Source of the DNA: Thalassomonas sp. RHCl1
GTDB taxonomy: Bacteria; Pseudomonadota; Gammaproteobacteria; Enterobacterales; Alteromonadaceae
Direction of reading: 5' to 3'
Length of the DNA: 64,000 nucleotides
Assembly (NCBI RefSeq): GCF_947387555.1
Contig: NZ_CANDNZ010000017.1
Coordinates: forward strand, 1 to 64,000
The translations under genes were made by a program, and so were the position numbers. Below, piece after piece: positions 45,926-51,397 of the stretch (the first letter of the stretch is position 1; the number at the start of each line of letters is the position of its first letter). Below the pieces are notes generated by a model. That model was not told the DNA's origin, searched no databases, and saw only the letters and a program-made list of their open reading frames with translations.

Positions 45926-46573
45926 ATGTTTACCCGCTGGCAAAACCCCCTGATCTACAGCCTGGCCTTTAGTAGTGGTTTCACTATCATGGGCATAGAA
46001 CTACTGGGAGGACGGATCCTGGCGCCCTTTTTCGGCAGCAGCATACATATCTGGGGCAGTATCATTACCGTGTTTATGGTGAGCCTGTCCTTCGGTTACC
46101 TGCTCGGCGGCAAACTCTCTACCCGCAACGCTTCCCTGAAACGCTTCGGCATCATCTATTTGCTCGGCGGCATCTTTATTCTACCTATCGCCTTGTATGC
46201 CAATGAGATCATGCAGGCGATTTTCCTGCAGACAGAAGACAGCCGCTACGGCTCATTAATGGCTGCCAGCGCCTTGTTTTTCCTGCCGACGGTGATCCTC
46301 GGCATGTTATCCCCCTATTCGGTGCGGCTGTTAGTCAAAAATAAAAATGAAAGCGGCCAGGTGGCGGGCATATTATATTTTGTCTCTACCCTGGGCAGCG
46401 CCCTGGGCACAATAATCACTTCGTTTTACCTGGTACTCTATCTCGAGGTCAACCAGATTATTTTCACCTTCAGCGCCCTGCTGCTGTTGCTGGGACTGAT
46501 CGCCATTGCCGCCGACAAAATAATCAAAAATACCGCGATGCAAGTTAAAGATCAGGAAGTCCGTCATGTTTAA
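45926..46573 (+). CDS. Membrane half of a split spermidine-synthase-like transporter/enzyme
   Basis: 215 residues, nearly all membrane helices (six or seven). Typical family N terminus: FSSGFTIMGIELLGGRILAPFFGSSIHIWGSIITVFM. In many bacteria this module is the N-terminal half of a single fused membrane/spermidine-synthase protein. Here it ends at 46573 and the second half is a separate gene overlapping by 8 bp. The role of the membrane module is not established. AGGA lies 8 nt before the ATG. Confidence 0.82.
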   Translation: MFTRWQNPLIYSLAFSSGFTIMGIELLGGRILAPFFGSSIHIWGSIITVFMVSLSFGYLLGGKLSTRNASLKRFGIIYLLGGIFILPIALYANEIMQAIFLQTEDSRYGSLMAASALFFLPTVILGMLSPYSVRLLVKNKNESGQVAGILYFVSTLGSALGTIITSFYLVLYLEVNQIIFTFSALLLLLGLIAIAADKIIKNTAMQVKDQEVRHV

Positions 46574-47474
46574 ACCCGCTTTACCGACACTGTTGCTGTT
46601 ATTGCTGGCAGCCTGCTCTCCCTGGCCCGGCAATGCCGAAGTCGTCCATAGCGAGCGCTCCCTGTACCGCAATATCATGGTGGAAGACAAAGGAGACTTA
46701 CGCTGCTTAAGGTTTAACGTCAAACAGAATAAATCCAACCAAAGCTGCCTTTACAAAAGCCAGCCGCAACAACTGGTATTTAACTATACCAAGCTGCTGT
46801 TTTCCGGGTTATTGCTCAACAGCAGGCCAGATAACATACTTATCATAGGTCTGGGGGGCGGCACTATGTCCAATACCCTGCACCAGCTCTACCCCCAGGC
46901 GCGCATTGAAAATGTTGAAATAGATCCCGCGGTTATCAAGGTCGCCCGGGAATACTTTGGCTTTTTCGAAAACGAGCGCGTCACGGCAACCGATCAGGAC
47001 GGACGCTTGTTTATTAAACGGGCGTTGATGAAAAAACAGCAATACGACTGGATCATCCTAGACGCCTTTAACGGCGAATACATTCCCGAACATCTGCTGA
47101 CACGGGAGTTTTTATCGGAAGCCAGACAACTGCTCAGTGACAAAGGAGTTTTAAGCGCCAATACTTTTTCCAACAGCGGTTTATACGCCTACGAGTCCGC
47201 CACTTATTACGACGTTTTCGGCGATTACTTTAATGTCAGGAATAACAAAAACGAAAACCGCATTATTTTAACCGGCAAGCAGGCACTGCCGGATATCAAA
47301 ACCCTGAGCCAGCGCCTGCCTGTCCTCGACAAGCAATTAAAACCTTTTGGTGTCGACATCAAAGAAATTTTCGCCAATATGGCCCTGGCCTCACAGGAGC
47401 GCGACTGGCCGCAAGATACCCGGGTGTTAACGGATCAATACTCCCCGGCAAACCTGCTCAATATCGACAAATAA
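46566..47474 (+). CDS. Spermidine synthase-like protein with N-terminal hydrophobic lipobox segment
   Basis: 302 residues. A class-I methyltransferase-type fold of the SpeE family: IIGLGGGTMSNTLHQ (about 93-107), NVEIDPAVIKVAREYFG, and IILDAFNGEYIPEHL. The N terminus (residues 1-17) is a Lys followed by a leucine run ending LAAC, which reads as a lipoprotein signal but could be a last membrane helix paired with the preceding gene. SpeE enzymes need a cytoplasmic cofactor, so a truly periplasmic location would be odd. Polyamine synthase activity is not assured. Confidence 0.8.
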   Translation: MFKPALPTLLLLLLAACSPWPGNAEVVHSERSLYRNIMVEDKGDLRCLRFNVKQNKSNQSCLYKSQPQQLVFNYTKLLFSGLLLNSRPDNILIIGLGGGTMSNTLHQLYPQARIENVEIDPAVIKVAREYFGFFENERVTATDQDGRLFIKRALMKKQQYDWIILDAFNGEYIPEHLLTREFLSEARQLLSDKGVLSANTFSNSGLYAYESATYYDVFGDYFNVRNNKNENRIILTGKQALPDIKTLSQRLPVLDKQLKPFGVDIKEIFANMALASQERDWPQDTRVLTDQYSPANLLNIDK

Positions 47475-47837
47475 TTGGCCAAAACTTAGTCATAGACATC
47501 AGCAAGATAGCAGGCAACTCCCGGCGCCGCCAGGCGCCAGCCACCGGGATAAAGCCTGGCCTGTCAAAAATAAATACTGCTACAACAAATAGTTAAAAAC
47601 TATGATCTCCGTCAGCAATTGCCTGTGAATTACAATTTAACCGTAGTTTTTGATTTCTTTTTAGCCTATATTAGGTATAAATAATTTGGCGTAAAAGAAT
47701 ACCAAACTGATTTATTCAATGTACACCCGCCGGCTTTAAGACCCTGGGATAAACGGATTTTCTGTACATCTGGTATATCTACATTCAGCAGATTTTGTGC
47801 GGTTATCGGCTTGGTATCATCTACCTGGAGAGATAAA
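47475..47837. other. Intergenic region before the tubulin-like gene
   Basis: 363 bp with no gene. GC-rich inverted sequences (CCCGG...CCGGG and two GGCGCC copies near 47520-47550) follow the spermidine-synthase-like gene. The rest is AT-rich, with a CCTA-TAT-TAGG dyad near 47668 and a possible TATAAA -10 close by. No confident promoter. Confidence 0.45.
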
Positions 47838-50138
47838 ATGCAGTCAAAGAAGTCTCAAACTCGTCCGCTTGGTCCCCAACGCGCAGGCAGGGTAAAACCG
47901 ACCCCTGAACCTGCGGTTGAGGCCAGTGATGATTTTGACGTAATTGTCAAAGAGCCGCAGAGTGAGCTATTACTTAAGGATAAACACAGCAACACTCCGT
48001 ATATGTATTTTACCGAAAAGGATCTGTCGAGGATCCTGAAAAATCTCGATGTCCTGCGCAGCGAAGTTTATCCCAGCGAACACAACCAGGAAGAAAATGA
48101 GCGTAAATTGCCCAACTTCCCTTCGGTATGTTTGATCGGTTTGGGCCGTTGCGGCTCTAATATCGCCCTGGATGTCGCCTCCCTGGTACATAACGCCCGC
48201 AACTTTTACCTGACGGAATTTAACCACGAACAAAAGCAGGCCAAGGAAAAAGAAGCGCGGCCGGTAAAATGGATCCAGCGTAGCCTGAAACTCCAGCAAA
48301 AGAAAACCGTCAAGCCGGTGTTTTTAATCGAACCCCTGGTGATGCTCGGCGATCTCGACAAAGATATCGAAGGCCGTATCCGCTTCTCGTCCAAAGGCAT
48401 AGACAATGACTTTTTGCGGGAATACAACAAGCTGAAAATCATGGACTTATCGGAAGTCCATGCCGGCGGCGCCGGTAACGCCCCGATTTTAGGCCAGTAC
48501 CTGGCAAAAATTATTCTCAATAAAGACACTGAGCATTTCAGCAACTCCGACTGGAAGTTTATCCACTCCTATCTTATCGACTCCTGCGGCATCAAGGCCA
48601 ACCAGTCGCGGCTGTATTTTTATATTTTCAGCGCCGGCGGCGGTACCGGCTCGGGTATGGCTTCGGAATTCGGCCTGGCCCAACAATACTCCTATATGAG
48701 TAAAACCTTTGATATCCGCCCGGAAAAAGAGCTGGTCAGCCAGAACCAGTCTTTTGTGTTTGAACCGATTTTTACCAGCGGCATCTGTATCTTGCCGAAC
48801 ATCACCGATCAGGGAGTGGAAATGTCGGAAGCCCTGCATATCAATGCCGGGCGTCTGCTGTGTAAATACCTGTCGGAGGAATGGAATTTCTCCTACAACA
48901 TGGACAACGAAGACAGCACCTCGGAAAATGTCATGCGCCGCATCCGGCCATGGAATTCCATGATGCTTATCTCCAACGACATCATGCGCTACGCCGAGCA
49001 AAACGACTCCGACGGCGGCATCCAGCATATCGATGTCAATGCCATGGAGAAACACGCCAACCAGTATATCAGCCAGCAGATTTTTAATATCTTAACCGCC
49101 CAGGCGGTGACCACAGATTACGACGAAAATTACTTCCGCCGTGCCGGTATCGATATCGGCGAAACCATACGCCTGGATGCCAACGATCTCTTTATGAGTC
49201 TGGCGGGCCCGGTGGCCATCGCCTATGCCGAATCTGTGGTGGCAGACAGCAGCCAGTCCGCAGAAAGCAAGCTTAAGCTCGGCAACGGTGAGCAGTTGAT
49301 ACTCGATATCGACGATCTCTTCTACCGCTCCATCGACCTGCCCCATTACAACAAGCAGACTCAGGCGATTGAAGGGGTAAGTTTACTGCCGGTGGAATCA
49401 GAACGTTACCGGGAGGCACTGCGCCAGTACAAGGATTCCAACTATAATGCCAAACACCTCTCGGATCTGCATTTCTTTAAGAACTGCTCTTCCGTGGTGT
49501 CGATTATTTCCTTGCCCAAAGACTATAAGCTCTCTTACATGGATCTGAACAAGCTGAAAATGCACCTTAACAGTTTGTTCCCCAATACCACCTTAAAACG
49601 TTATGCCCTGGTGATAGGCGCCTCTGCCAACCTGTCCCTGACCACCTTGATTGCCAAAAGCCCGTGTTTAAGCGATGACTTCCTGACCCTGATCGTCGCC
49701 TATATCAAACGCTGTTTTGCCAAGGACGACCACAGGTTTGACGACTCGCTGGACAAGGCCATTATCGACTTTATCCGCGCACCGGTCTTTAACGAAAGTA
49801 AGCTTGAAGCCATGCTGGTGGAAAATGAAAACCCGGCAAAAATCCTGGATACCAACTGGTATGCCATCAAGCCTATGTATGAGAAAAAATACCGCGAGCT
49901 GATCCAGGACGGTAAGAAGTTTACTTCTATCAATGATATCCGCCTGACCCTGGATTGCGTGAAAAAGTCTATCCATTATTTGCGGGAAATCTACCGCCAC
50001 AAAATCAGTAAAACCAAAATCATCTCCCTTAATGATCATTTTAGTTTTTCCGAGGAACTGTCGGAGAAGAAACCTGCCAAGGCGAAAAGAACTAAAAAAG
50101 AAGATCTCAAAGAGCAGGATATCAAAAAAGACGAATAA
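47838..50138 (+). CDS. Tubulin/FtsZ-superfamily GTPase-like protein, orphan
   Basis: 766 residues from ATG 47838 (GGAG 8 nt upstream). An N-terminal extension of about 95 residues precedes a Rossmann-type start VCLIGLGRCGSNIALDVA (about 97-114; GLGRCGSN 101-108). The tubulin/FtsZ GTP-binding signature AGGGTGSGMASEFGLA is at 266-281 (GGGTGSG 267-273). A candidate counterpart of the catalytic T7 loop is KLSYMDLNKLKMHL (563-576), where the second acidic residue of FtsZ is not conserved. The C terminus is a Lys/Glu-rich tail (about 744-766). It is twice the length of FtsZ, so this is not cell-division FtsZ but one of the divergent tubulin-like families of bacteria. No phage or plasmid genes adjoin it. 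Function unknown. Confidence 0.8.
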   Translation: MQSKKSQTRPLGPQRAGRVKPTPEPAVEASDDFDVIVKEPQSELLLKDKHSNTPYMYFTEKDLSRILKNLDVLRSEVYPSEHNQEENERKLPNFPSVCLIGLGRCGSNIALDVASLVHNARNFYLTEFNHEQKQAKEKEARPVKWIQRSLKLQQKKTVKPVFLIEPLVMLGDLDKDIEGRIRFSSKGIDNDFLREYNKLKIMDLSEVHAGGAGNAPILGQYLAKIILNKDTEHFSNSDWKFIHSYLIDSCGIKANQSRLYFYIFSAGGGTGSGMASEFGLAQQYSYMSKTFDIRPEKELVSQNQSFVFEPIFTSGICILPNITDQGVEMSEALHINAGRLLCKYLSEEWNFSYNMDNEDSTSENVMRRIRPWNSMMLISNDIMRYAEQNDSDGGIQHIDVNAMEKHANQYISQQIFNILTAQAVTTDYDENYFRRAGIDIGETIRLDANDLFMSLAGPVAIAYAESVVADSSQSAESKLKLGNGEQLILDIDDLFYRSIDLPHYNKQTQAIEGVSLLPVESERYREALRQYKDSNYNAKHLSDLHFFKNCSSVVSIISLPKDYKLSYMDLNKLKMHLNSLFPNTTLKRYALVIGASANLSLTTLIAKSPCLSDDFLTLIVAYIKRCFAKDDHRFDDSLDKAIIDFIRAPVFNESKLEAMLVENENPAKILDTNWYAIKPMYEKKYRELIQDGKKFTSINDIRLTLDCVKKSIHYLREIYRHKISKTKIISLNDHFSFSEELSEKKPAKAKRTKKEDLKEQDIKKDE

Positions 50139-50146
50139 ACTTAAAA

Positions 50147-50177
50147 CAGCAAGCCGGCATTTACTGCCGGCTTGTTG
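50147..50177. terminator. Stem-loop between the tubulin-like gene and rluF
   Basis: 13-bp stem CAGCAAGCCGGCA/TGCCGGCTTGTTG (one G-U) with a TTTAC loop, between convergent genes. A TTTTAAG tract follows on the minus strand. Confidence 0.75.
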
Positions 50178-50213: not shown

Positions 50214-51188
50214 TTATGACTTAGACTTTGCCGGACGCTTCAAGGTCAGCGTCCCCGGCGAAGATTTTTTCCGGGTATTGACGACTTTCACCAGGCCTTT
50301 GCCTTTACCCGGTTGCCGGCCTTTATCGGCCTTTTTATGGTCCGGGAACTGGTTTTTTTTCTTTTCTCCCCGCCCTTTTTCCGGTGTTTTCGGCCTGCTT
50401 TGTGTTTTCACATCAGCCTGGGTTTCGACTTTATCTTTAGGTAAGGCAGTATCGGCTGCGGTTTTGCTGGAACCGGCCACCGCAGCATTAATTTCCGCCA
50501 TTTCCTGTACCGTCAAATCCCGCCACTGACCGGGTCTGAGTTTTTCCAGGGTGACATTCATGATCCGGGTGCGTTTAAGTTTTTTCACTTCATAACCCAG
50601 GTATTCACACATGCGGCGGATCTGGCGGTTTAATCCCTGGGTCAGGATAATACGAAACACAAAACGGCTTTGCATCTTCACCTGGCACGGCTGGGTAATG
50701 GTGCCGAGAATGGGCACCCCTTTTGACATACGCTCGATAAAACGCTCACTGATGGGTTTGTCCACCGTAACCACGTATTCCTTGTCGTGGGCATTTTCCG
50801 CCCGCAATATCTTGTTGACGATATCGCCGTCGCTGGTCAGGAAAATTAGCCCTTCCGAGGGTTTGTCCAAACGCCCTATCGGGAAGATACGCTCTTTATG
50901 GCGGATGGCATCGATAATATTGCCCCTGACATGGCGCTCTGTGGTGCAGGTAATACCTATCGGCTTGTTGTAGGCAATATAGATGCGATCAGATTTGTTT
51001 TCCGGGCTGGCACTGATTGGTTTGCCGTCAACTTCCACGGTATCGCCGGGTAATACCTTAGTCCCCAGCTCGGGATGTTTGCCGTTGATGGTGACACGAT
51101 TTTTTTCGATCAGCTTATCCGCTTCCCGGCGGGAGCAAAAGCCCGATTCACTGATAAATTTATTCAGGCGTTTTTCATTGCTGCTCAC
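50214..51188 (-). CDS. rluF: 23S rRNA pseudouridine synthase RluF
   Basis: 324 residues from GTG 51188 (GGAG 5 nt upstream). S4 RNA-binding domain (RLNKFISESGFCSRREADKLIE) and a RsuA-type catalytic domain with GRLDKPSEGLIFLTSDGD (catalytic Asp) and LTQGLNRQIRRMCEYLGYEV. A Lys/Pro-rich C-terminal tail of about 90 residues resembles E. coli RluF, which modifies U2604. Confidence 0.93.
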   Translation of the reverse strand: MSSNEKRLNKFISESGFCSRREADKLIEKNRVTINGKHPELGTKVLPGDTVEVDGKPISASPENKSDRIYIAYNKPIGITCTTERHVRGNIIDAIRHKERIFPIGRLDKPSEGLIFLTSDGDIVNKILRAENAHDKEYVVTVDKPISERFIERMSKGVPILGTITQPCQVKMQSRFVFRIILTQGLNRQIRRMCEYLGYEVKKLKRTRIMNVTLEKLRPGQWRDLTVQEMAEINAAVAGSSKTAADTALPKDKVETQADVKTQSRPKTPEKGRGEKKKNQFPDHKKADKGRQPGKGKGLVKVVNTRKKSSPGTLTLKRPAKSKS

Positions 51189-51397
51189 TGGCACTCCGGG
51201 TCATTGCTTGTTCGGGCTTATGGATGTTAAGCCGGGTCAGATATTAAATAGCGCTAGTATACTAAAGCCCCGGCCAGGATAGCCAGCGCAATAGAAACAG
51301 CAACAACAAGTTTCCACGCTGTCACCGTGCTTTTATCAACAAGCTCTGGTCCGTAACCGGCGACAAACAGTGCTCACCCGGCAACTGAAAATAAAAG

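Follow-up and report, generated by a model that had tools for sequence, protein, structure and literature searches.

The gene and its surroundings

The DNA analysed here, referred to as the window, is a 64,000-nucleotide stretch of a contig of Thalassomonas sp. RHCl1. An intact open reading frame (ORF) occupies positions 47838–50138 of its + strand, from the ATG at 47838 to the stop codon at 50138, and encodes the 766-residue protein P0001; length and coordinates agree exactly with the original prediction made from the sequence. The gene is present in a single copy in the 7.56-Mb genome. The features that delimit the gene and the ends of its product are as follows.

47827..47832, + strand: GGAGAG, recognised by eye as a probable ribosome-binding site that ends five bases upstream of the ATG
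47838..50138, + strand: gene very probably of the FtsZl2 family, 766 amino acids plus stop, from the ORF list and the alignment of relatives
47838..47999, + strand: N-terminal extension, residues 1–54, variable in sequence and length according to the conservation profile and alignment
50037..50135, + strand: Lys/Glu-rich tail, residues 734–766, unconserved within the family according to the conservation profile and alignment
50150..50174, strand not assigned (listed on the - strand): hairpin of 10 pairs, a possible terminator by consensus match only

An upstream TTG start was considered for P0001 and discarded as unnecessary, because GGAGAG lies ahead of the ATG. Upstream of the gene, a pair of spermidine-synthase-like ORFs ends 363 bases before the ATG, and uvrA is located beyond the pair. 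Downstream, the convergent gene rluF occupies window positions 50217–51194 and is separated from the FtsZl2-like gene by the hairpin at 50150–50174. Both neighbours had been described in this way, and we agree with the earlier placement of the gene outside phage, plasmid, and division clusters. Because the hairpin follows the gene and a gap of 363 bases precedes it, P0001 is probably transcribed alone. The spermidine-synthase-like pair is itself a split version of a fused MFS/spermidine synthase, in which the ORFs for the membrane part and the synthase part overlap by a few bases (window 45926–47471). The GC content at third codon positions of the P0001 gene is 0.632, which falls inside the range of 0.505–0.685 of the window genes, and recent acquisition by this genome was therefore rejected. 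The relatives of P0001 are 722–785 residues long (81 ORFs).

Probable nucleotide-binding loops

Conservation was counted in 118 aligned rows, the window protein and 117 distinct relatives, which were collected by similarity without a motif filter. Three loops of the tubulin/FtsZ nucleotide site can be recognised in the N-terminal half of P0001.

48138..48161, + strand: T1-like loop GLGRCGSN, residues 101–108, in 117 of 118 rows; weak PF00091 match at residues 97–134
48465..48485, + strand: T3-like loop GGAGNAP, residues 210–216, paired by hhalign with GAGANP of FtsZ
48636..48656, + strand: T4 signature loop GGGTGSG, residues 267–273, in 118 of 118 rows; aligned by hhalign; weak Tubulin_2 match at residues 211–283

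The T1-like and T4 loops are located where the original prediction had placed them. The T3-like sequence is exact in 104 of the 118 rows and differs by one letter in the other 14.

P0001 alone matches the Pfam families Tubulin (PF00091, residues 97–134) with an E-value of 0.056 and Tubulin_2 (PF13809, residues 211–283) with an E-value of 0.055, both under the curated cut-offs. When 18 family members were scanned singly (up to E 1), PF00091 matched all 18 and PF13809 matched 17, each with a best E-value of 8.4e-4. Unrelated families also gave weak matches; the next-ranked, DUF6562, matched five of the 18 members (best E 0.0026). FtsZ_C is absent among the Pfam families matched by the 18 members.

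A profile of 79 family members was compared with a profile of 43 FtsZ proteins (from 61 loci considered), and the scores were set against 60 column shuffles. The region from GGAGNAP to GGGTGSG, which spans T3 and T4, aligns with FtsZ over 45 columns with 38% identity. The whole-profile score is 28.4 (highest shuffle 27.3) and that of the N-terminal part is 26.4 (highest shuffle 23.9), with none of the 60 shuffles as high in either comparison; one of 60 shuffles scored as high for the T1 segment. An FtsZ-type C-terminal domain, which had been noticed by eye, gave no signal in the profile test (34 of 60 shuffles as high, 18 of 60 with a tighter cut) and was dropped. The segment from T6 to T7 likewise found no support against the FtsZ profile, with 45 of 60 shuffles as high. 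Two AlphaFold2 models have no confidence, with mean pLDDT values of 36.8 and 42.6. The weak but repeated profile signals make membership of the nucleotide half in the tubulin/FtsZ superfamily, the core of the original prediction, a well-supported assignment at the sequence level.

Candidate T6, H7, and T7 elements

Candidates for the elements that follow the nucleotide loops were placed by eye.

48966..48980, + strand: candidate T6 loop LISND, residues 377–381, in 118 of 118 rows
49032..49115, + strand: candidate helix H7, residues 399–426, DVNAMEKHANQYISQQ..., with Asn408 in 118 of 118 rows
49161..49193, + strand: candidate catalytic T7 loop ETIRLDANDLF, residues 442–452, with Asp447 and Asp450 in 118 of 118 rows
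49536..49556, + strand: YMDLNKL, residues 567–573, by eye and from its position more like the start of a helix in the C-terminal half; its acid is not in all rows

The D-x-x-D pattern and the motif order of the segment 442–452 fit FtsZ, which has the sequence NVDFAD in the same genome. The gap between the candidate H7 and T7 is about 15 residues longer than in FtsZ, and 314 residues follow the T7 candidate. A second candidate is DYDE at residues 427–430, the first three letters of which are found in 118 of 118 rows, with Glu, Gln, or Asp in the fourth place. YMDLNKL had been taken for the T7 loop and numbered 568–574, one residue too late. It is located about 140 residues past the probable H7 and was very probably misplaced; the segment 442–452 appears to be the better candidate, as far as placement by eye allows. 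The suggestion that GTP hydrolysis might be altered through the loss of a T7 acid has no basis in the 442–452 candidate, since both of its aspartates are invariant.

Distribution

Genome contigs contain 528 relatives of P0001. The best 80 of the 528 match over most of the length with 71–85% identity in the best segment, a resemblance that is, from the alignments, beyond chance. Judging by their titles, these 80 are Gammaproteobacteria, and they include Colwellia, Thalassotalea, Rheinheimera, Alkalimonas, Alteromonas, Paraglaciecola, Cellvibrio, Pseudomonas, and others. The family reaches far beyond Colwelliaceae, the group for which a synteny survey had been proposed. In genome samples that include the window's own genome, the gene was found in 10 of 59 relatives, 32 of 394 genomes of the order, 2 of 369 of the class, and 9 of 398 of the phylum, and the matches in the order, class, and phylum samples are all in the window's class. 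These counts include broken copies in genomes G042 (relatives, order, and phylum samples) and G561 (order sample), which are located at G042:C1:2486892-2489729 and G561:C55:32636-33113. There was no match at an E-value of 1e-3 in 72,556 plasmid and 50,697 phage records, no confirmed match in viral contigs, and no match in E. coli genomes at blastn sensitivity.

Evolutionary constraint and transfer

The lowest identity of any pair among 138 loci compared is 58%. These loci, which also underlie the 79-row tree below, had passed a motif filter (GGGTGSG plus DAND), which cost nothing, as all 138 loci (within L001–L168) with a similar open stretch of at least 300 amino acids were retained. No intermediate toward other tubulins was met among the loci compared.

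The rate of change was compared with that of FtsZ in 13 of 16 genomes, those with FtsZ DNA for the comparison, which provide 78 pairs. The mean amino-acid identity is 76.5% in the family versus 72.2% in FtsZ, and in 51 pairs the family has the higher value. Between the window and Thalassotalea, the family is 80% and FtsZ 91% identical, whereas between the window and four Pseudomonas genomes the values are 74–77% and 63–64%. Agreement at fourfold-degenerate sites is 0.34 in the family (0.26 expected from composition) and 0.38 in FtsZ (0.28 expected). For the window and Pseudomonas it is 0.53–0.60 in the family (0.37–0.41 expected) versus 0.39–0.46 in FtsZ (0.28–0.29 expected). Because the silent sites are largely scrambled, the high protein identity mostly reflects constraint. 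By these comparisons, the family is under purifying selection and evolves about as slowly as FtsZ.

The FtsZ tree unites the window genome, Thalassotalea, and Colwellia (support 99/99) and has long branches elsewhere. The family data reject this group with a p-AU of 1.7e-4, where the group was named after both trees had been seen. In a quick family tree of 79 rows, from which near-copies were left out, Paraglaciecola falls among Rheinheimera. In the 13-genome tree, a fully supported split separates the four Pseudomonas genomes from the other nine, which counts against wide transfer. The corresponding branch length is 0.24 in the family versus 1.56 in FtsZ. Since the 13-genome tree separates Pseudomonas, the case for transfer between orders depends on branch lengths and not on topology. 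We conclude that the family combines strong constraint with patchy presence and some horizontal transfer, and that it is dispensable.

Probable assignment to the FtsZl2 family

The FtsZl2 family was predicted in 2010, with PFL_1302 of Pseudomonas fluorescens Pf-5 as its type (Makarova & Koonin, PMC2875224). In the parts of that description drawn on here, FtsZl2 proteins occur in several Proteobacteria beside a normal FtsZ, continue for about 300 amino acids after the GTPase part, and have no associated genes (PMC2875224). They are said to possess T1, T4, T6, T7, and H7; the criteria of the family include a GGGTG(S/T)G loop, a C-terminal region of mixed alpha/beta type, and the lack of a coiled coil, and PFL_1302 was matched to PF00091 by HHpred with an E-value of 0.0033 (PMC2875224).

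P0001 shares with FtsZl2 the proteobacterial origin, the GGGTG(S/T)G loop, the coexistence with FtsZ, a C-terminal part of about 300 residues as counted from the candidate T7 loop, and the lack of linked genes; no difference was found, as judged from the published description. A canonical FtsZ is encoded elsewhere in the window genome. Among 15 further genomes that carry the gene, FtsZ was seen in 12, and the other three (G061, G068, and G071) lie outside the comparison of motif DNA. A DNA pattern that encodes GGGTG-x-G matched 42 times in 15 genomes with relatives, and 30 of these matches were classified. Ten belong to this family, 12 to FtsZ (61–90% identical to that of the window genome), and one to a divergent FtsZ (locus L098, 33%); four are located in ORFs like neither and three in open stretches shorter than 60 amino acids. 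The divergent FtsZ, in Colwellia psychrerythraea GAB14E (G065), is a second copy with an open stretch of 386 amino acids beside an ordinary FtsZ.

A GGGTGSG match represents this family in four of five Pseudomonas genomes, the four in which the match DNA was examined. In P. alkylphenolica (G060) and P. xionganensis (G063), the sole two GGGTG-x-G matches are FtsZ and this family. We take Pf-5 to be a relative of these two strains. A motif search in Pf-5 like that of the authors of PMC2875224 should find this family.

P0001 resembles FtsZ, which the same genome also encodes, in the pattern of the T1, T3, and T4 loops, but it is nearly twice as long and is encoded outside the division cluster; in BLAST searches at an E-value of 1e-5, none of ten family proteins showed similarity to the FtsZ of the window genome. 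The original prediction left open whether the protein belonged to a divergent family already described or formed a new branch. P0001 is very probably a member of FtsZl2, with PFL_1302 compared by description only, and a new branch is not supported. The full reading, that P0001 is an FtsZl2 protein and as such a stand-alone GTPase of the FtsZ/tubulin superfamily, encoded on the chromosome, that works beside the division FtsZ and does not replace it, is probable.

Gene context and a sigma-28-like site

The context survey covered 113 loci (window included, some genomes twice) with 37 genus labels. No neighbour spans the family, and the widest cluster among the 113 loci reaches nine of the 37 labels, at a median of 5.4 kb, in keeping with the earlier remark that the gene has no partner beside it. 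Scans against Pfam or NCBIfam showed 29 distinct neighbour proteins to be ordinary and varied, one of them without a family; none of the 29 is named as a von Willebrand A (vWA) protein, Ser/Thr kinase, OmpA, or P-loop GTPase.

In 32 of 113 loci other than the window, with some genomes represented twice, rluF is located near the gene. In Colwellia, one Thalassotalea, and the window's genus the two genes are on opposite strands, and in Rheinheimera and Arsukibacterium they share a strand. The remaining loci showed no rluF; the flanks of a few of them are very short. We read rluF as marking a location and not as a partner. A cluster taken to consist of GGDEF/EAL proteins occurs 17 times near the gene, in eight genus labels. 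They were rejected as partners, because this frequency was judged to be about that expected from abundance. Chemotaxis receptor, GGDEF, and GGDEF/EAL genes are found nearby in several lineages (L213:10429-12051, L201:10419-12308, L077:4636-6897), perhaps only through abundance.

In one Pseudomonas clade, the sigma-28-like sequence TAAAG-N14-GNCGAT is located 129–183 bases before the script-chosen start codon in 10 of 10 loci (L073, L074, L075, L077–L081, L160, and L161). The clade consists of seven rows of the 79-row tree and three near-copies, which are 87–99% identical, and much of the flanking DNA differs among the ten loci. Among 115 distinct upstream regions, the pattern occurs in 10, all from that clade, versus a mean of 0.05 in shuffled sequences. 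The pattern was shaped after the first hits had been seen and the loci are related, so that the 10 of 10 is not an independent test. The published sigma-28 consensus is TAAAGTTT-N11-GCCGATAA (PMC7286023, PMC4866697, in the parts drawn on here). Over 79 upstream regions, a laxer FliA pattern did not rise above chance level, with 16 matches versus 13.0 expected, and a strict one has 4 versus 1.4. The window's own upstream region contains no sigma-28-like site.

Possible functions

No experimental study of the FtsZl2 family was found in the open-licence literature. The most likely role of P0001 is that of a stand-alone GTP-dependent filament with an accessory task, accessory because many relatives are without the gene. 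The protein would be cytoplasmic and would bind GTP at the T1–T4 loops of one subunit. Acids from the T7 region of the next subunit would complete the active site, joining the subunits head to tail, and hydrolysis would limit the lifetime of the filament. With its roughly 300 residues, the C-terminal half may, like the variable tails, decorate the filament and bind a partner whose gene is located elsewhere.

Every member of the superfamily that had been characterised by 2010 forms filaments, and the same was predicted for FtsZl2 (PMC2875224, in the parts drawn on here). This prediction and the T7-candidate acids found in all 118 rows argue against a GTP-binding switch or scaffold of the superfamily that does not polymerise, in which the inserts and the long C-terminal half would block the contacts between subunits. 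Such a switch would fit the length of the C-terminal half, the extra residues between the candidate H7 and T7, and the lack of a detectable FtsZ C-terminal domain or T6–T7 signal; on balance, we consider it unlikely. The protein might also be no tubulin relative at all, but a Rossmann-like protein with converged glycine loops, as the scores of P0001 under the Pfam cut-offs and the low-confidence AlphaFold2 models could suggest. The correct order of T1, T3, and T4, the matches of two Pfam tubulin models to 18 and 17 of 18 members, and the HHpred E-value of 0.0033 between PFL_1302 and PF00091 (PMC2875224) speak for common descent and render convergence very unlikely.

With FtsZl1 (Pfam Tubulin_2, PF13809), P0001 has in common a weak match around T3–T4, and the Tubulin_2 model is the one used for divergent FtsZ-like sequences in the relevant part of PMC9871819. 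FtsZl1 differs in its vWA, kinase, GTPase, and OmpA neighbours, none of which is among the 29 proteins scanned here, where no neighbour recurs, and this leaves a slim chance for an FtsZl1-like machine that remodels membranes together with von Willebrand A proteins and other partners. TubZ and PhuZ share with P0001 only the superfamily. The signs of horizontal transfer would fit a DNA-partition filament of their kind that is the relic of a plasmid or phage, but this family is chromosomal, has proteins of 722–785 residues, and is absent from the plasmid and phage collections at an E-value of 1e-3, with no match confirmed in viral contigs. No recurring gene for a DNA-binding partner was seen, and such a filament is exceedingly improbable.

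For the preferred accessory filament, a more specific task can be proposed as a speculation that is itself improbable. FtsZl2 would form a bacterial tubulin cytoskeleton dedicated to the motile state, with no part in division or DNA segregation. In the Pseudomonas clade, it would be expressed from a FliA-like promoter alongside the late flagellar genes, and its filaments would place or arrange a structure linked to the cell pole, for example flagella or chemosensory arrays; control would be different elsewhere.

Compared with the 2010 description, FtsZl2 emerges as a tight and patchy family, partly moved by horizontal transfer, with conservation like that of FtsZ. A predicted tubulin relative conserved to about this degree is present in culturable Pseudomonas, Rheinheimera, and Colwellia. 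The gene could reveal a role of bacterial tubulins outside division and DNA segregation, for which the sigma-28-like site provides a first condition.
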